From Caulobacteraceae bacterium (GTDB lineage Bacteria; Pseudomonadota; Alphaproteobacteria; Caulobacterales; Caulobacteraceae), in the NCBI GenBank assembly GCA_947441065.1, contig CANESI010000004.1:1-64000 (forward strand): 64,000 bases of DNA. Reading direction: 5' to 3'. Positions 9,082 through 17,913 of this stretch are shown here, one piece after another. Numbering within the stretch: position 1 is the first letter of the stretch; every line of letters starts with the position of its first letter. Below the pieces are notes generated by a model, which made no database searches, had not been told where the DNA came from, and saw only the letters and a list, made by a program, of their open reading frames with translations. A program made the position numbers and the translations under genes.

Positions 9082-9963
9082 ATGAGCACTCTGCTTTCCA
9101 AGCTGGGACTGGGCACTGCGCAGTTTAGCGCTGGCCATGGTGGGCCAAACCCACGCGGGCGGCCTTTAGAGGCCGAGGTCAGCGATATTCTCAAAATTGC
9201 GGACCGATCCGGTTTTGGCGTGCTTGATACCGCCGTTTCCTTCGGTCAGGCTGAAGCGCTGGTTGGGGCGCATTTGCCGCGTCCCAATGGTTTTCGAATA
9301 GTCATCAAGACCGCACGATGTGATCGCGGCCCCGACTTTGTCGAGCAAGAGGCTAGAGCCTCCTTGTTGCGGCTTGGAATTCATCAGGCCGATGCGATTA
9401 TGGTGCAACAGGCCGGGGATCTGTTTGGCCCCCACGGTCCGGGACTTTGGCAAAGGCTGTTATCGCTTCGAGAGCAAGGTCTGTTCAAGCATGTGGGCAT
9501 ATCGGTCTATGCCTCGGATGATCCGCTTGGCGTTGCCGAGCGGTTTAAGCCCGACATTATTCAGGTTCCGGCAAGCCTTCTCGACCAGAGGCTACTCATC
9601 GACGGTACCCTCGCGCAGATCCGGCAATTGGGCATCGAGGTTCAACTTCGGTCGATCTTTCTGCAGGGCATTTTGTTTCTTCCACCTGATCGGATGCCCA
9701 ACAGCCTAAAGGCCGCATCTGCACGGCTGTCGCGGATTAGACGCATGATCGCCGAAGGTCGAAGTGATCCCCTGCGGGCAGCCCTTGGCTTTGCACTGTC
9801 ACGGCCGGAAGCCTCATCGGTTATTGTGGGCGTAACTACGGCGGCGGAACTGTCGGCCATTGTCGCGGCGGCGCTCACTCCCCTACCCGATCTTGATTGG
9901 GATGATATGGCTTTAGATGACCCCATTGCGCTTGATTCTGGGCGTTGGGGCGTGGTGGCCTGA
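9082..9963 (+). CDS. Aldo/keto reductase-fold protein with degenerate catalytic residues
   Basis: A 293-residue (beta/alpha)8 protein of the AKR superfamily: LGLGTAQF at the start, LDTAVSFGQAE around residue 50, VIKTA at 73-77 and ASSVIVGVTT near the C-terminus. The usual tetrad is Asp, Tyr, Lys, His. Asp49 and Lys76 are present, but the Tyr position in the DTA..YG motif is Phe54, and the His after the DAxxx strand appears to be Gln109. Normal reductase chemistry is therefore doubtful; it may be a pseudoenzyme or act differently. It is 59 bp from the divergent xdhC-like gene and ends about 100 bp before the repA start. Confidence 0.8.
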   Translation: MSTLLSKLGLGTAQFSAGHGGPNPRGRPLEAEVSDILKIADRSGFGVLDTAVSFGQAEALVGAHLPRPNGFRIVIKTARCDRGPDFVEQEARASLLRLGIHQADAIMVQQAGDLFGPHGPGLWQRLLSLREQGLFKHVGISVYASDDPLGVAERFKPDIIQVPASLLDQRLLIDGTLAQIRQLGIEVQLRSIFLQGILFLPPDRMPNSLKAASARLSRIRRMIAEGRSDPLRAALGFALSRPEASSVIVGVTTAAELSAIVAAALTPLPDLDWDDMALDDPIALDSGRWGVVA

Positions 9964-10021
9964 ACTTTATCCCACCTCGAATACTCCATGCGAGACTCGC
10001 GTACCGACTCAGGATGCAATA

Positions 10022-10036
10022 GGGGTATTGCAGACG
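10022..10036 (+). promoter_or_regulatory. Single iteron-like site upstream of repA (probable operator)
   Basis: GGGGTATTGCAGACG, preceded by TA, matches the iterons downstream of repA and has the same orientation. It sits 31 bp before the repA GTG, a position typical for autoregulatory binding of an iteron-type initiator. Confidence 0.65.
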
Positions 10037-10066
10037 CCTAGAACGTCGATTCGCGAAAGGACGCCC

Positions 10067-11026
10067 GTGAAGGGTCAGGTTGACTTCTTCCTCGATGCTC
10101 TCGTCGACGCTCCGATCAAAGAGGATCGGGCGCTGCTTGAGTTTCCGTTCTTTTCGCTGGCTAAGCGCCCGCGGATGGAGCCGATTGTCTATAGTGACAG
10201 CCGGGTTAGCATTGAGGTTGCGCCAAGCCATAAGGGCGTTGCCACCGTCTGGGACCGTGATGTCCTGATCTATCTCACCTCCCTGATCAATGAGCGGATG
10301 GAACGCGGTGAACCGGTCAGTCGAACGGTCCGCTTTCCGGCCCACGACTTTTTAATCGTGACGCAGCGGGCAAAGCCCGGTCAGGTGGGGGCTAAGGCCT
10401 ATGACGCCTTTCTCGATGCCCTGGAGCGGCTTCGCGGTACGACGGTTAAAACCTCCATTTCAGCCGCCGAGGTCCGCGAGCGACGCGGTTTTGGTTGGAT
10501 CGATAATTTTCGGGTGGTTGAGGTCGAGAAGCCCGGCGGTAAACGCCGCATGAAGGCGGTCGAAGTAACCCTTAATGACTGGACGTTCCGTGCCATCACC
10601 AAGGAGCGGCGTGTCCTCACCGTAAACCGAGACTATTTTCAACTTACCGGTGGCATCGAGCGGCGTCTCTATGAGTTGGCCCGTAAACATTGCGGTGATC
10701 AGGCCAGCTGGTCGATCAGTCTTCCGCGCTTGGCCGAGAAGGTCGGGGTGTCGGGTGAATTGCGCAAGTTCAAGGCCGAGCTCAAAGAGATCATCACCAA
10801 GGACAATCTGCCCGACTATCGCTACGGCCTTGCTCGTGATCCCTCTGGTGAGATGGAAAAGGGCATGAAGGCCGAGGGCTATAGCCTCAAGGGTCTTCGC
10901 AATGACCGGGTTTTGGCGATTGTTACCCCGAAGTTCAAGGTGAAGCCGGGTGCTGACGGCCCCGAACCCGAGGGATCTTTTTCGTTCGCGCTCTTTGATG
11001 ATGATGACGATCTCATTGAAGGCTAG
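10067..11026 (+). CDS. repA: RPA-family plasmid replication initiator
   Basis: A 319-residue initiator of the alphaproteobacterial 'replication initiator protein A' family. Recognisable segments are ALLEFPFFSLAKRPR near the N-terminus, SRTVRFPAHDFLI, FLDALERLRGTTVKTSI, VTLNDWTFRAI and RRLYELARKHCGDQASW, consistent with tandem winged-helix domains that bind iterons. The frame is open from 9917, but an iteron at 10022-10036 falls inside that extension. I chose GTG 10067, which is preceded by AAAGGA at 10056-10061. Iteron arrays lie directly downstream and a ParA/RHH partition operon follows, so this is the initiation protein of the replicon, or of a plasmid integrated in it. The acidic C-terminus (DDDDD) is notable. 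Confidence 0.88.
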   Translation: MKGQVDFFLDALVDAPIKEDRALLEFPFFSLAKRPRMEPIVYSDSRVSIEVAPSHKGVATVWDRDVLIYLTSLINERMERGEPVSRTVRFPAHDFLIVTQRAKPGQVGAKAYDAFLDALERLRGTTVKTSISAAEVRERRGFGWIDNFRVVEVEKPGGKRRMKAVEVTLNDWTFRAITKERRVLTVNRDYFQLTGGIERRLYELARKHCGDQASWSISLPRLAEKVGVSGELRKFKAELKEIITKDNLPDYRYGLARDPSGEMEKGMKAEGYSLKGLRNDRVLAIVTPKFKVKPGADGPEPEGSFSFALFDDDDDLIEG

Positions 11027-11047
11027 ATTTCATTTATCCTACGGTTA

Positions 11048-11177
11048 GGGGTATTGAAGACGGTACCATAGGGGTATCGGCGACGGCGAATTGGGGGTTC
11101 GGGGACGCTTCCATTAGGGGGATCGCCGACGCCGGTTTAGGGGTATTGACGACGCCCTCTTAGGGGTTTCGTGGACG
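11048..11177 (+). repeat. Iteron array 1: six direct repeats, consensus GGGGTATYGNCGACG
   Basis: Copies start at 11048, 11071, 11093, 11117, 11140 and 11163, a pitch of 22-24 bp or about two helical turns. Most are preceded by TA. Positions 1-4 (GGGG) and the terminal GACG are invariant; the centre varies (TATTGAA, TATCGGC, GTTCGGG, GATCGCC, TATTGAC, TTTCGTG). All point the same way, as expected for initiator binding sites on one face of the helix. Confidence 0.85.
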
Positions 11178-11186
11178 GAGTTCTGT

Positions 11187-11200
11187 TGATTCGCGAATCA
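11187..11200. promoter_or_regulatory. 14-bp palindrome with two GANTC sites inside the origin
   Basis: TGATTCGCGAATCA is a perfect palindrome between the two iteron arrays. It contains GATTC and GAATC, both recognition sites of the CcrM methyltransferase that many alphaproteobacteria use to mark replication state. The core GATTCGCGAA recurs near 10048-10057, just before the repA ribosome-binding site. Possible roles are methylation-sensitive control or a second RepA site; neither is proven. Confidence 0.5.
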
Positions 11201-11331
11201 CGAGAAATTTGATGCCAATCGCTCCGTCGGTCTGTCTCGCAGACCCCGTTCAGGATCATTATGGAGCCTGGCTTTGACGCTATAGTGCCCTGCCCTTCGA
11301 GACTTTGGAGATTAAGGGGTGGCCGTTATTC

Positions 11332-11413
11332 GGGGTATCGCCGACGGCTATAAGGGGGATTGCCGACGCTGAGAGCGGGGTATCACCGACGCAGACACGG
11401 GGTATCACCGACG
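11332..11413 (+). repeat. Iteron array 2: four direct repeats, consensus GGGGTATCRCCGACG
   Basis: Copies start at 11332, 11354, 11377 and 11399 with 22-23 bp pitch and the same orientation as array 1. The last two are identical (GGGGTATCACCGACG). Array 2 is better conserved than array 1 and lies next to the AT-rich stretch, so it may be the core origin while array 1 acts in copy control. Confidence 0.85.
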
Positions 11414-11553: not shown

Positions 11554-11997
11554 TCAAGAACGCTCACGCAAGCGTTTGGCCTTACCCTCTGGCGTTGCCT
11601 TCAAGAGCTCCAGGGCACGTTCGATGACTTCAGCCACGATCCATCCGCGTGTGTCGGCTAGATCGTACACATATTCGATGGTCTCGCGGGTCAGCTTAAC
11701 GTTCAACTGGTGAACACGCCCTGTCTTGGGTCTTGTTCGGCGACGCAGAACCGGTTCAACCGGTGCCGGTTTCGCCTTTACGGGCTTGGCGCGCGCGGGT
11801 TCCTTAACGGGGGCTTCTGGCCGGGCATGGAAGCCTTGTCGCTCTGAGGCCTGTCTCAGGGCATCCGAGAGCGTGGGCGCTTGAGGTGCTGTGGCTGGAC
11901 GCGGGGCAAATCCGCTGAGATCAATGTCTAGATCGCTATCATCATCCAGATCCAGCGCGACGCGGGTCTTTATGGGGGCAGGGGTCTGCTCAGCCAT
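11554..11997 (-). CDS. Ribbon-helix-helix DNA-binding protein, putative ParB-type partner of ParA
   Basis: A 147-residue protein with an acidic, low-complexity N-terminal half (DLDDDSDLDIDLSG) and Pro/Ala/Lys-rich linker, then a C-terminal RHH-like domain of about 50 residues (RVHQLNVKLTRETIEYVYDLAD followed by a helix WIVAEVIERALELL). This matches the small centromere-binding proteins that replace ParB in type Ib partition systems: a flexible arm that stimulates ParA and an RHH dimer that binds DNA repeats. It follows parA by 3 bp on the same strand. The likely target is the TATC-repeat region upstream of parA. Confidence 0.72.
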   Translation of the reverse strand: MAEQTPAPIKTRVALDLDDDSDLDIDLSGFAPRPATAPQAPTLSDALRQASERQGFHARPEAPVKEPARAKPVKAKPAPVEPVLRRRTRPKTGRVHQLNVKLTRETIEYVYDLADTRGWIVAEVIERALELLKATPEGKAKRLRERS

Positions 11998-12000
11998 GGT

Positions 12001-12687
12001 CTATGCCTCCTGGGCTGTTGCGACGGTCGGACGTAGGCGGTTTGTGACGGCCCTCGCAAAATCACTGACATTGGCCAAGGCAGCCGGGAGATTGGACGCT
12101 TGGGCCGATGTTAATCCGCCGACGGTGCCGCCAAACGAGAATATGGCCCGGAAGGCTTCACGCTCTTGGAGGGTGCAGGCCAAGACTGGCAGGCCGGCCG
12201 TTTCAAACTCGTCGCGAATGTGCAGGAAGGTTCTGGGCTGAATGGCTGTACTGACCCGGTTGAAAAACAGGGCAAAGGGCACGGAACGGCCAATGGCCTT
12301 TTCTGTTGAGCGTACAAGCTTCACCGCTCGGGCCGCTTGAGCGGCGTCTAGATGGGAACCCTGAAGTGGGATCAACACTAAATCAGAGCGTGACACCGCA
12401 TAGGAAACGGTTAGCGAGGCTGTGCCCTCAAGGTCGCAAATGACAAAGGTGGACCGCTGGGCCTCCTCTTCTATGACATCAATGACCGTGTCTTGGGTCA
12501 CGTCCCGGATGACCCGCAGGTTTTCAGGGCGCCCGGGGAGCTTCGCCCAAGATGAGACGGGCTGGTTTGGGTCCGCGTCGATCATGGTCACCGGCGCGCC
12601 CATGTCGGCAAGGACGCCGCCGAGCAGAACCGCTGACGTTGTCTTACCCACTCCGCCCTTGGGGCTAACAAATGAGATTACCGGCAT
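12001..12687 (-). CDS. parA: ParA-family partition ATPase
   Basis: A 228-residue P-loop ATPase with the deviant Walker A motif KGGVGKTT at residues 10-17, the MIDADPNQP motif and the ICDLEGTA Walker B region. It lacks the N-terminal DNA-binding extension of type Ia ParA proteins, which fits type Ib, where the small partner protein does the repression. First gene of a two-gene operon with the RHH protein. The phased TATC repeats begin about 38 bp upstream of its start. Role: segregation of the replicon over the nucleoid. Confidence 0.9.
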   Translation of the reverse strand: MPVISFVSPKGGVGKTTSAVLLGGVLADMGAPVTMIDADPNQPVSSWAKLPGRPENLRVIRDVTQDTVIDVIEEEAQRSTFVICDLEGTASLTVSYAVSRSDLVLIPLQGSHLDAAQAARAVKLVRSTEKAIGRSVPFALFFNRVSTAIQPRTFLHIRDEFETAGLPVLACTLQEREAFRAIFSFGGTVGGLTSAQASNLPAALANVSDFARAVTNRLRPTVATAQEA

Positions 12688-12724
12688 AGTGTCTTGTCCT
12701 CGCCCCGTCGGCCTAGATTACCGC

Positions 12725-12911
12725 TATCTTGAGATATCCCAAAGCTATCATAAAATAGCGATGAGGTTGCTCGCGCTAGTTCATGGTTATCTTTTAATTA
12801 TCGTGAGGAAGCAAGGGGATATCTCGATATATCTTTAGCTATCCGTGGATATCTTGAGGATGCCAATTTGGTATCTCTGAATAACCCAAAGATATCCATA
12901 ACGTTGTTATC
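12725..12911. repeat. Helically phased TATC repeats upstream of parA, putative centromere/operator
   Basis: TATC motifs begin at 12725, 12735, 12746, 12788, 12799, 12820, 12830, 12840, 12850, 12872, 12893 and 12908. Apart from the last, the intervals are 10-11 bp or multiples (21, 22, 42), so the motifs lie on one face of the DNA. The tract is much more AT-rich than its surroundings. Its place directly upstream of a parA-RHH operon suggests the site where the RHH protein binds as both centromere complex and repressor. Confidence 0.7.
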
Positions 12912-13153: not shown

Positions 13154-13777
13154 TTAGGGACGTCCGACCATGCGCTTATAGTCGTTAAGGCATCGGACTG
13201 TCGCGCCTAGATCCGTAATCAAACCGTCCTTAAGGGAGTATACCCAGCCGTGAACCGCGATCTTCTGTTCGCGAAGCCATGCGTCCTGAACAAAGACGTC
13301 GGAAGCCACGTTGCGTACTTGCCGCATAACGTTCAACTCGCAGAGCCGGTCCATGCGTGGAGCGCCATCCTCTAGCCCTTCCAACTCGCTGCGGTGCTCA
13401 TCGAATACTTCTCGAATGGGATGGAGCCAGTGATCGATTAGGCCGTGCCGTTGTCCATCCACAGCCGCATGAACCCCACCACAACCGTAGTGACCAACGA
13501 CCATGATGTGTTTTACCTTCAGAACCTCAACGGCATATTGCAGCACGGACAGATAGTTCGCGTCCTGCGGCGGTGCCAGATTGGCCACATTGCGATGGAC
13601 AAAAAGCTCTCCGGGATCGAGCCCAACGATCTCATTGGCAGGGACCCGGCTATCTGAACAACCGATCCAGAGGAACTCCGGGGACTGCTGGGCGGCTAAA
13701 CGCTTGAAGAAGTTTGGATCGACCTCAGTCTTGGCTAAAGACCACGCGCGGTTATTCTCGATAAGATCTTTAACCAT
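13154..13777 (-). CDS. Beta-class carbonic anhydrase
   Basis: A 207-residue zinc enzyme interconverting CO2 and bicarbonate. All ligands and the catalytic dyad are visible: Cys40, Asp42 and Arg44 in CSDSR, and His96 and Cys99 in GHYGCGG. The length is normal for the family. The frame is open upstream to 13834, but ATG 13777 is preceded by a GGAGGAG ribosome-binding site, so I start it there. It may supply bicarbonate to the PEP carboxylase encoded at 28083-30764, though the genes are far apart. Confidence 0.95.
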   Translation of the reverse strand: MVKDLIENNRAWSLAKTEVDPNFFKRLAAQQSPEFLWIGCSDSRVPANEIVGLDPGELFVHRNVANLAPPQDANYLSVLQYAVEVLKVKHIMVVGHYGCGGVHAAVDGQRHGLIDHWLHPIREVFDEHRSELEGLEDGAPRMDRLCELNVMRQVRNVASDVFVQDAWLREQKIAVHGWVYSLKDGLITDLGATVRCLNDYKRMVGRP

Positions 13778-13873
13778 GGAATTAACTCCTCCAACTCTGG
13801 CCTTACCAGATAGTGAGCCAAAAATTGGGCGCAAGGCTTTAGCCTTAACATAACCAACCGGTTCTCACCTTTC

Positions 13874-15898
13874 CTATTGGGTTAGATGGAGGTTGCGAGC
13901 AACCAAGGCGTTGAAGACGTCGCTTAGCCCACTACTACTTGTCGAAATGGCATGACCTGGGGCAGGGGCGCAGGCACTCGCAAGTGCCATAGCCGCAGGA
14001 TCCGTAACATCGACCAAGATGAAATAGACATCGATGCCGTATCTTTCGCGCATCACGTTGCAGGCCGAAAGGGTCATATTGTCCGCAGCCATATTGTTGA
14101 GAACACCCAAATTCGGCGACCGCCAGCAGTTGCCCGCGGCAGATCGCCCCGTATTGGTGCATCCGTAATAGCCCTCATACTGGGTCGGGGCTTCGTTTTT
14201 ACCGTCGGTCAAGATGATCGCGATCTTATGGGTTTGGTTTGAATTGAACGCAGAAGGCGCCTGCTGGTCGCTCAGGCTCCAGAACCGTTTCCAATAGGTG
14301 TTCGGGGACAGGATTCTCAATCCCCAAAGCAGCCCGACATCCGCCTGGGTCCCGCCCGGGACCGGATACATCTCGTCCAGCTTATCCAAAACCTGCTTGC
14401 GGTTACCCGAGAGCGGTAAGATCGAAACAGGGCAGTTGAGGTTTGGGCCTGATATGGGCATTGCCCGCGTCCATGCGTGGGTGGTTTGACGGGTGCTTAG
14501 GTAGTTGGGAAAGGCATCAATCTCCCAACTGCATATTGCCCCCCCCGCATTGAGGTAGTCGCGTTCATTCGGGTCGGACAGGCAGGCAGGTAGGGTCGAC
14601 GATTGAATTGGCCGGTTGCTCGCGTCCCTGGCCGACGAACAGTCGCGGGGGCGGTTGAAGTAGGCGTTAAGCGTCCCGTTGGCGTGAAGTGCGGGGCTTT
14701 GGGTGCAGGAAACAAGTCCCGAATAGACGGTATTTGAACATTGTAAGGCCGCTGAACGATAGCGCGCCGAAAGCCAAGCATGTCCGGAATCCGGGTTAGA
14801 AATCTGCCCTAATGGCGGATTTGCCGCAAAGACCGGCCTATACCGATCCAAAGACCCTAAGGGAACCGGCGGTGGGGGAGGTGGGGGGCTTGGAGGCCCA
14901 GGGGGGCGCGGCGGCCCCGGCGGTACGTCTATATAGGCGGTACAATATGATAGGTTGGACGGGCTTGCGGATGACTCCAGCAGTGCTGCGGGAAAGCGAG
15001 ACGGGGGCGGGGCATCACTAATGGCCTGCGTCACCGTTCCGGAGGCAGAAACCCGAACCTCATTATCTGCAGAGCGGACACATCCGCGCCATCTGGTTGG
15101 GCGCGCCAGATCTAACAGCCGAGCAGATGTTAGAGCGACCGATGCATTACGCGGATCAGCCAACACACTGAGACGGTCGAGGGCAGGGGGCTCAGGGTCC
15201 CGGCCCGACCCCGCAATAGGCGGGGCGCTAGACGGCACTGCGGCTGGGTCGGTGGCTAGAATGGCTTCTGAATTGATATTTACAACCGTTGTCCAAGGCA
15301 CCACCCCGATCTTCACGCGGTCGCCCCCTAAGGCATAGACTTGGTTCACATAGTCCTTGGCCGCTTGGCGCATGAGCGTAAAACGGCCGCCCGTGAACAT
15401 GGAGGAGGTATTATCCAATATGAGGGCAATCTCGACCGGTTTTCCCGCCGAGGTCGCCTCAGCTGAGGCCTTAAAGGGAAGCTCTGCTATATTAAAAAGC
15501 CCGCCAAAAATGTTAGGCGAAGCCCCCGTGACGGTCAGAACCAGCTTACCCGCATTGGCATCGACCGTCTGGGACCAATCAAGATTGTGAATCTGATCGG
15601 CTCGATCCCGTAGCGATAGGTCCAAACTGGCCTGGGCTGCGCGATTGGCTGACGCCATCCGAACGCTGCTATCGCCCAAACTCGTGGCGAAATAAACCTT
15701 TGCGGACGCCAAGACCGCGGTGTCGGTGGCCTCCTGAACAAAGGCCTTGGTTGAAACCAGGCGCCGATAGTCGACGGCTGCGCCTAACGCTAAAGAGATC
15801 GGAATGAGGGAAGCCGCGACAATAATAGCGACATTACCATCGTTCGCGGTCCGGCATTTTGAACCGATTAGAGACAAAAGCCGTGAATTCATGCTCAA
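13874..15898 (-). CDS. TadG-like pilus assembly protein with VWA domain (paralogue 1)
   Basis: A 674-residue membrane-anchored protein. Residues about 21-42 form a hydrophobic helix after a DGNVAIIVA motif, typical of TadE/TadG-type pseudopilin-like N-termini. A von Willebrand A-type region begins near residue 155, with a MIDAS-like DNTSSM at Asp162. The middle carries a long proline run, and the C-terminal half has IILTDGKNEAP, GYYGCT and several cysteines. Such proteins are secreted or cell-surface accessories of Tad/Flp pili, but no other tad gene is in the window. The adjacent gene is a clear paralogue sharing RWRGCVRSA-type and YPVPGG-type motifs, so the pair arose by tandem duplication. 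Confidence 0.75.
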   Translation of the reverse strand: MSMNSRLLSLIGSKCRTANDGNVAIIVAASLIPISLALGAAVDYRRLVSTKAFVQEATDTAVLASAKVYFATSLGDSSVRMASANRAAQASLDLSLRDRADQIHNLDWSQTVDANAGKLVLTVTGASPNIFGGLFNIAELPFKASAEATSAGKPVEIALILDNTSSMFTGGRFTLMRQAAKDYVNQVYALGGDRVKIGVVPWTTVVNINSEAILATDPAAVPSSAPPIAGSGRDPEPPALDRLSVLADPRNASVALTSARLLDLARPTRWRGCVRSADNEVRVSASGTVTQAISDAPPPSRFPAALLESSASPSNLSYCTAYIDVPPGPPRPPGPPSPPPPPPPVPLGSLDRYRPVFAANPPLGQISNPDSGHAWLSARYRSAALQCSNTVYSGLVSCTQSPALHANGTLNAYFNRPRDCSSARDASNRPIQSSTLPACLSDPNERDYLNAGGAICSWEIDAFPNYLSTRQTTHAWTRAMPISGPNLNCPVSILPLSGNRKQVLDKLDEMYPVPGGTQADVGLLWGLRILSPNTYWKRFWSLSDQQAPSAFNSNQTHKIAIILTDGKNEAPTQYEGYYGCTNTGRSAAGNCWRSPNLGVLNNMAADNMTLSACNVMRERYGIDVYFILVDVTDPAAMALASACAPAPGHAISTSSSGLSDVFNALVARNLHLTQ

Positions 15899-15948: not shown

Positions 15949-17913
15949 CTATCGGCTAGCCGATGATTTAAGCAAATCACTAAAAGACCATTTCAACAAT
16001 AGTTCCATGTCATCACCATTTGTTGAGAGGACGGAGTTTTCATCTCCAGCGCATTGAGCGGCAGAACGTCTCGCTTGCGGATCGGATCCATTGGTCAATA
16101 TGACATAGACCTTGATGCCGTAAGTCTCACGAAGGACTTGGCACGCGGCGAGCGTTAGGGCGTTCAGGCTGGACTCATTTAGGTTTGCAACATTGGCCGA
16201 TCGCCAACATGAGCCGCTACCGCGCCGGTTTTCCCCCGTGCAGCCATAATATCCCTCAAAATCGATGGGCGCTTCATTGCGGCCATCGGTAATGAGCACG
16301 GCGATCTTGCGTCCTCCAGAACCGAAGGCGAATGGCCGCTGCCGGTCAGTGAGACCCCAAAATTGAGTCCAATAGGGACTTGGCGATAGAGTCCGCAGCG
16401 CCCAAGCCAGTCCCACATCCGATTGGCTACCGCCCGGCACAGGATAGAGTTCGTTCAACTTATCAATAATCTGCCGCCGGTTGCTCGATAGGGGAAGGAT
16501 CGCCGCCGGACAGTTGAGGTTAGGGCCCGAAATCGGCCTGTGGGATCGCCCCCAAATGCTAGGCTCGTTCTGCTGGAACGCGTCGACCATCCAAGGACAG
16601 ATTGCTTGGTCCGCCTTAAGATAACCGATCTCGTTAGGATCGGACAAACAGGCGCGATTGATCCCGGTTTGCACAGGATTGTTTGAGGTGCGATCCGTTG
16701 AGCACTTCTGATCTGTGGGCTGAAAGGCGTTTAGGGTACCATTTCGATGTGCCGTTACGACACTCTGGCCCGTCTGATCGAAACATTGGTGGATCGAGTT
16801 GGAGTAGCTCCACCTCACACATTGCCGTACCAGTTGGGCCTTCCGCAGACGGCTAAGGCGTGCATCCCGATCTGAACCAGATCTCGGGAACCTAGCTTGG
16901 GTGGGGCGGCCCACCTCGGTGTTCTCGGGCGGGGCAGGCTGATCGACCGTCTGATAGGCCAAACATTGGCCGACAAAAGGCGTTTGAATGCTTGAGCTCA
17001 ACAGGGCAGCGGGCCAAATGCCGTTGGGTGGTGGTTGGTCATTGATCGGTTTGACGACCGCATTATCCGCATCGGTTTGCACCTCACCATCAGCTGACCG
17101 CACGCAACCTCGCCACTGGGTTGGACGAGAAAGGTCGTTCAAGCGCTCAAGGCTGAGGGGGGTAGTGGGGTCTTGAGGCTCTGCAAGCACGGAAAGCCTG
17201 GATTGTGAGGGTTCGGGGGGCACGCGCCGAGAGCCGGTCGCCAAATAGTCGATATCGCGAGCCGCCGAAGGATCTCCCGGCGCAACAGATTCTGAGTTGA
17301 TATTGACAAGAGCAGCCCAGGGAATGACCGAAATCTTCACACTCGACCCTGCGACGTCCATGAGGTCGTTCACATAATCCTTTGCCGCATGGCGCATGGC
17401 CGTGAACTGATCCAAGTCACCTAACGAGCTGGAGCTGTCGACAATAAGGGCAACCTCGAGAGAGCGACTGGTGGGATCGACGGACGTCGAAACCTTTATG
17501 GGGACGCGCTGGATAAAGGGCAAAGCGCTGAGCGTTGTGGGACTGTCGGCCATAACATCGAGATCAAAGCGTCGTTGAATGGGGTCTGCAGACACCTTCC
17601 ACACGACATTTTCGACCCGATCTTGCGCGCTTTCCCATCCCTGAAGAATCTTGCCGACCTCCTCTTCACTTGCAATCTTTCGCTCCGCCTCGCTGATGTT
17701 GCGAGATGTGAAATAGACCCAGGCTCCTTCGACGGCCGCGCGGTCGGAGATGGTTTGAAGCGTGCCGCGCGCTTCATCATGTTTCTGCAACTGCTGGAAA
17801 CTACCGAAGGCGAAACTTAGGGGTATCACCGACAGGCCAATGACCCAGGTCAGCCCAGTCCGAATCCTGCGCCCACTAAATGGGCCGTTAAGGCTACGGC
17901 CACGACGATCCAA
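15949..17913 (-). CDS. TadG-like pilus assembly protein with VWA domain (paralogue 2)
   Basis: A 654-residue homologue of the neighbouring gene with the same architecture: N-terminal membrane helix (about 20-38), TadE/G-like region, VWA-like region starting VALIVDSSSSL with the MIDAS Asp149, and a C-terminal half with VLITDGRNEAP, GYYGCT and SCWRS. Shared blocks include QWRGCVRSADGEV, LNCPAAILPLS and LYPVPGGSQSDVGLAWAL. It lacks the long proline run. The N-terminus is Arg-rich before the helix, so it is probably a signal-anchor protein facing the periplasm. It is likely co-transcribed with paralogue 1, 50 bp downstream. Biological role unknown. Confidence 0.75.
   Translation of the reverse strand: MDRRGRSLNGPFSGRRIRTGLTWVIGLSVIPLSFAFGSFQQLQKHDEARGTLQTISDRAAVEGAWVYFTSRNISEAERKIASEEEVGKILQGWESAQDRVENVVWKVSADPIQRRFDLDVMADSPTTLSALPFIQRVPIKVSTSVDPTSRSLEVALIVDSSSSLGDLDQFTAMRHAAKDYVNDLMDVAGSSVKISVIPWAALVNINSESVAPGDPSAARDIDYLATGSRRVPPEPSQSRLSVLAEPQDPTTPLSLERLNDLSRPTQWRGCVRSADGEVQTDADNAVVKPINDQPPPNGIWPAALLSSSIQTPFVGQCLAYQTVDQPAPPENTEVGRPTQARFPRSGSDRDARLSRLRKAQLVRQCVRWSYSNSIHQCFDQTGQSVVTAHRNGTLNAFQPTDQKCSTDRTSNNPVQTGINRACLSDPNEIGYLKADQAICPWMVDAFQQNEPSIWGRSHRPISGPNLNCPAAILPLSSNRRQIIDKLNELYPVPGGSQSDVGLAWALRTLSPSPYWTQFWGLTDRQRPFAFGSGGRKIAVLITDGRNEAPIDFEGYYGCTGENRRGSGSCWRSANVANLNESSLNALTLAACQVLRETYGIKVYVILTNGSDPQARRSAAQCAGDENSVLSTNGDDMELLLKWSFSDLLKSSASR

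Follow-up and report, generated by a model that had tools for sequence, protein, structure and literature searches.

Genes and repeat arrays of the replication and partition module

The window, i.e., the whole 64,000-nucleotide stretch of Caulobacteraceae DNA that was analyzed, carries a module comprising a replication gene, repA, an array of iterons, the partition genes parB and parA, and a tract of short phased repeats upstream of parA. The repA gene (positions 9917 to 11026, forward strand) codes for an RPA-family replication initiator (PF10134, E = 3e-75) and is convergent with parAB. The space separating repA from parB holds an array (positions 11045 to 11413, forward strand), split into two blocks, of approximately ten copies of the sequence GGGGTATYGnCGACG with a pitch of 22 to 24 bp. 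This array is kept in the genus and likely represents the origin iterons of RepA in an RPA-type replicon. The presence of these separate iterons beside repA indicates that the replication and partition arrays of the module are distinct.

The parA gene (positions 12001 to 12687, reverse strand) encodes a 228-aa ATPase with a deviant Walker A motif (PKGGVGKTT, beginning at residue 9) and without an N-terminal DNA-binding domain, in line with the definition of type Ib ParAs used here (about 190 to 310 aa, deviant Walker A, no N-terminal DNA-binding domain). The protein scores above the cutoffs of the VirC1 (PF07015) and CbiA (PF01656) profiles; its match to the ParA_partition profile (NF041546, E = 2e-32) is below the cutoff of that profile. 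The nearest solved structure is that of ParF from TP228 (4dzz, E = 1e-15), and the match to CbiA, VirC1, and ParF spans the full length of the protein. The parB gene (positions 11554 to 11997, reverse strand) starts 3 bp past the parA stop codon, so that the two genes form an operon with a small parB directly downstream of parA, as is characteristic of type Ib systems. Its 147-aa product is slightly above the range of 46 to 131 aa given for type Ib ParBs (PMC3235114).

Relatives of this ParB carry the annotation “stability/partitioning determinant.” The window's own protein has no match in Pfam, and no ParB family was obtained from Pfam, NCBIfam, or PHROGs. The protein consists of a disordered N-terminal part and a C-terminal part with a beta-alpha-alpha pattern like that of ribbon-helix-helix (RHH) proteins. 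An alignment of 30 relatives contains a conserved C-terminal strand, TGR-x-x-Q-x-N-x-K, followed by two likely helices, as well as a nearly invariant arginine, Arg12, near the N terminus. The RHH_1 profile weakly matches 11 of these 30 family members (best E, 0.004), and hhalign aligned the family with CopG-type RHH proteins over the RHH stretch with an E of 0.003 but a probability of 11.5%. AlphaFold modeling of ParB (five close homologues) gave a mean pLDDT of 56 and a pTM of 0.18, values too low to judge the fold by, and the hits of an hmmsearch of ParB against the PDB, mainly designed helical proteins, were dismissed as chance matches. Given the weak RHH_1 matches, the low-probability CopG alignment, and the lack of a Pfam hit for the protein itself, ParB is no more firmly than probably an RHH protein. 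The original prediction had placed the tract directly upstream of a parA-RHH operon; the parA-parB operon is indeed there, 35 bp away, while its RHH component is a probable one.

On the other side, the partition tract adjoins a gene for a carbonic anhydrase-like protein (positions 13154 to 13834), a neighbor more suggestive of a secondary or chromid-like replicon than of a small plasmid. Positions 13874 to 15898 and 15949 to 17913 encode adjacent, paralogous large proteins resembling those of the Tad-pilus/von Willebrand type, with an N-terminal membrane anchor.

Phased repeats upstream of parA

The tetranucleotide TATC starts at positions 12725, 12735, 12746, 12788, 12799, 12820, 12830, 12840, 12850, 12872, 12893, and 12908 of the forward strand, i.e., with start-to-start steps of 10, 11, 42, 11, 21, 10, 10, 10, 22, 21, and 15 bp. 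This recount bore out the original prediction, which had listed twelve such sites at positions 12725 to 12911, spaced by 10 to 11 bp or multiples thereof except for the last, in an AT-rich tract (38% GC, compared to 58% for the window). TATC is strongly overrepresented: the local 220 bp contain 12 copies, whereas 2,000 dinucleotide shuffles of this sequence had 3.0 on average and 8 at most, and nowhere else in the window does a 187-bp segment hold a separate TATC cluster of equal density. The predicted 10.5-bp periodicity was recovered with a phase resultant (R) of 0.81, or 0.97 without the last site (position 12908), which lies off the grid; the respective values at 7 bp and 8 bp are 0.30 and 0.17. 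The phasing is significant both for periods of 10 to 11 bp (P = 1.5e-4) and for all periods from 5 to 25 bp (P = 4.5e-4). A motif-free sliding-window scan found the strongest 10- to 12-bp signal of the window in the iteron array rather than in the parA tract, because the iterons repeat at two helical turns.

As judged from the congeneric tracts described below, the repeat unit is not the tetramer TATC as such but a (quasi-)palindromic hexamer, GATATC/GATAGC. Among the 55 GATA sites of the six congeneric tracts, read in the orientation of parA, 20 belong to GATATC, 10 to GATAGC, and 6 to GATAAC. In an alignment anchored on GATA, information next appears two bases further along, where C prevails (37 of 50), which makes the unit a hexamer and TATC its portion on the opposite strand. 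So defined, the candidate parS centromere and parA operator occupies positions 12723 to 12911 (reverse strand) and consists of GATATC/GATAGC-like cores in steps of 10 to 11 bp (10.5 bp), with perfect cores at positions 12723, 12733, 12744, 12818, 12838, 12848, and 12891 and degenerate ones in between. The 42-bp gap in the TATC series is partly occupied by degenerate cores that keep to the grid, such as ACTAGC, which precedes the parA ATG by 93 bp. Another degenerate core in this gap, GCTATT, 72 bp before the ATG, is GCTATC in three relatives; the first five bases of this GCTATY core are invariant in four genomes.

Conservation within the genus

Among the seven genomes of the genus that were examined, five contigs besides the window's own (L003, L004, L005, L006, and L028) bear parA and its upstream region; parB is also present on four of these, and the contig ends at the locus in L028. 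The tracts of L003, L004, and L005 align with that of the window without gaps, and the conserved columns of these four tracts recur with a period of 10.65 bp, at a power that none of 5,000 permutations reached. In the diverged tracts of L006 and L028, the sites are shifted but mostly remain at multiples of 10.5 bp. The best period is 10.50 to 10.55 bp in all six tracts, including that of the window (P of at most 0.005 for each). Loss of phase in close relatives had been named in advance as grounds for discarding the centromere hypothesis; with the phase kept in all five congeneric genomes that have the locus, the hypothesis survives this test. In L028 and L006, the most diverged tracts, the promoter-proximal cores shift from GATATC toward the CTAGC type with a similar spacing (e.g., CAGCTAGCCCGGCCTAGCTCCACCTAGCTAAAGCTAGC in L028).

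Distribution of the ParA family and its upstream repeats

Plasmids that encode the same ParA are found in Hyphomicrobiales, Acetobacteraceae, Azospirillaceae, Sphingomonadaceae, Burkholderiales, and Pseudomonas, and genomic loci with this ParA are also found in the window's own family and class. Relatives of this ParA were absent from the viral collection searched, and only distant ones were detected in the phage collection. The family was sampled with 50 nonredundant loci from alpha-, beta-, and gammaproteobacteria, including Caulobacteraceae replicons of ∼1 Mb; parB adjoins parA in nearly all of them.

The pooled autocorrelation of the regions upstream of parA in these 50 loci peaks at 11 bp (z = 35), 22 bp (z = 21), and 33 bp (z = 10.5), and a second series of distances comprises 7, 18, 29, and 40 bp. 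A common AGCT-centered 11-bp grid for GATAGC and GCTATC was considered and dropped, as the 7-, 18-, and 29-bp distances persisted. Individually, 26 of the 50 loci are in phase at p < 0.01, compared to 6 of 50 at out-of-phase control distances; the other 24 do not reach this level. Some loci, most of them distant, have no significant signal. GMTAKC cores occur at 10.5 per kb upstream of parA and at 1.6 per kb elsewhere in the same loci, and are absent from several loci of the family. GATAGC is the commonest core in many loci, including Cupriavidus and Burkholderia plasmids; one Pseudomonas plasmid has GATATC and GAATTC cores.

Most of the family has a pitch of ∼11 bp; it is 12 bp in one case (the same Pseudomonas plasmid) and 10/11 bp in the window's genus. 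Since it varies among 10.5, 11, and 12 bp, the spacing of the units is conserved more than strict helical phase, and the exact helical phasing that the original prediction had emphasized is not what the family conserves. Phased tracts upstream of parA are found together with different Rep proteins, so the pattern goes with par and not with rep. Three ∼1-Mb replicons from another Caulobacteraceae genus (L095, L096, and L097, on G108:C2, G088:C2, and G042:C2, respectively) carry the same parAB genes with an RPA-type repA beside them and an 11-bp tract; these appear to be chromids that rely on a type Ib system for partition.

Function of the tract

Very probably, the tract combines two roles, parS centromere and operator of parA, in a type Ib partition system that is of the pTAR kind and resides on a plasmid or chromid of the RPA type in a Caulobacteraceae bacterium. 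The candidate centromere of the original prediction is supported by the conserved phased array upstream of a type Ib-like operon, the family-wide pitch of ∼11 bp, and the separate iterons; its attribution to an RHH/ParA system carries the reservation about ParB made above.

Several other roles of the tract have to be weighed. The module also contains repA, at a distance of 1.7 kb from the tract, iterons are a feature of RPA replicons, and TATC also occurs inside the iterons of the window; on these grounds, the tract could be taken to belong to the replication origin and to consist of iterons for the RPA-family RepA. Such a role is very unlikely: an oriV in the parA tract was rejected because a distinct array that resembles origin iterons, the one at positions 11045 to 11413 with its 22- to 24-bp pitch, adjoins repA, and phased tracts precede parA also on plasmids with other Rep proteins. 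The tract directly precedes parA, where the promoter must be, and the operator and centromere of type Ib systems can be separate, as are OF and parH of TP228 (PMC5016525), so the repeats might only mediate autorepression of parAB, the true centromere being elsewhere. This is improbable, as ∼190 bp with at least 12 sites is far beyond the needs of repression, no second cluster of paired cores was found anywhere in the genome, and type Ib centromeres are usually found upstream of the operon (PMC5016525).

It is also conceivable that the repeats do not bind ParB and that their AT-rich steps, phased at 10.5 bp as is needed for curvature, specify a DNA bend or a site for a nucleoid protein. The tract is AT-rich indeed, but its conserved positions fall on the hexamers GATATC/GATAGC, including their G and C residues, and not on A-tracts, and the cores of the relatives with a pitch of 11 or 12 bp drift out of helical phase, which leaves this explanation with hardly any probability.

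As a centromere and operator, the tract would be occupied by ParB dimers, one per quasi-palindromic core and helical turn, which would thereby line up along a single face of the DNA and form a short array. This array would cover the parA promoter and repress the operon, and would also mark the replicon. The flexible N termini of ParB, with Arg12, could then engage ParA on the nucleoid and stimulate its ATPase activity, which would move the replicon copies apart. ATPase-stimulating arginine fingers are known in other ParBs, and Arg12 is a candidate for such a finger.

Comparison with known partition systems

The partition system described here is of a widespread, already known kind; the regularity of its repeats across the family may not have been stated before. 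Among type Ib systems, parFGH of TP228 resembles it in that ParF is nearest to the window's ParA, and differs in its pitch of ∼8 bp and its ACTC boxes, in contrast to the one-turn spacing and GATAKC cores seen here; ParG and the window's ParB share no detectable sequence similarity.

Another close likeness is to parABS of the Agrobacterium plasmid pTAR, also of type Ib. That system likewise has a short ParA and a small ParB encoded downstream in one operon, with repeats upstream of parA that act as both centromere and operator. Its parS is reported to have palindromes of 7 bp, spaced by about 10 bp, in front of parA. The approximately one-turn spacing would thus be shared with the 10.5 bp of the window and the 11 bp of most family loci; the repeat spacing of pTAR is not quoted in the literature searched. 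The likeness rests on this reported spacing and on the repeat distances of 7, 11, 18, and 29 bp upstream of parA in Agrobacterium plasmids of the same ParA/ParB family, relatives that were retrieved with ParA as well as with ParB. The core and pitch, GATATC/GATAGC at 10/11 bp here, differ from those of pTAR. PMC3235114 and PMC2666795 cite Kalnin et al. 2000 on the pTAR system.

The original prediction held that sites one helical turn apart, when recognized by an RHH protein, might not have been described before; this is probably wrong, as the RHH protein ParR binds repeats of 10 to 11 bp and the parS of pTAR is similar. The ParR iterons of plasmid R1 are 11 bp. In the type II parMRC systems of R1 and pSK41, the operon is preceded by tandem repeats of ∼10 bp to which dimers of the RHH protein ParR bind (PMC5016525); the motor there is the actin-like ParM, whereas here it is a Walker ParA. 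The type Ib delta-omega-parS system of pSM19035 is similar in its short repeats that are also the operators of promoters; its ParB, which does not spread, is an RHH protein (PMC9499535), as that of the window probably is. It differs in that its repeats are contiguous 7-bp heptads, at least four of which are needed without gaps (PMC9499535), whereas the units of the window are 10 to 11 bp apart, with some turns degenerate (R of 0.30 at 7 bp and 0.81 at 10.5 bp).

Structural modeling of type Ib partition has drawn mainly on the 7-bp arrays of pSM19035 and the tetramer-box arrays of TP228. Judging from the loci compared here, spacing by one turn would be the norm in a large ParA/ParB group whose replicons extend to megabase second chromosomes. 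GATAKC-like cores every 10 to 12 bp before parA provide a sequence signature by which such centromeres could be located. The natural variants with a pitch of 10.5, 11, and 12 bp could serve to separate helical phase from protein-protein spacing. A bolder and rather doubtful generalization is that a broad class of type Ib systems, from plasmids to the ∼1-Mb Caulobacteraceae chromids, offers one RHH-ParB site per ∼10.5 to 12 bp, with the geometry of the resulting one-faced or slowly twisting array setting how ParA is engaged, unlike in the contiguous 7-bp arrays of the best-studied type Ib systems.
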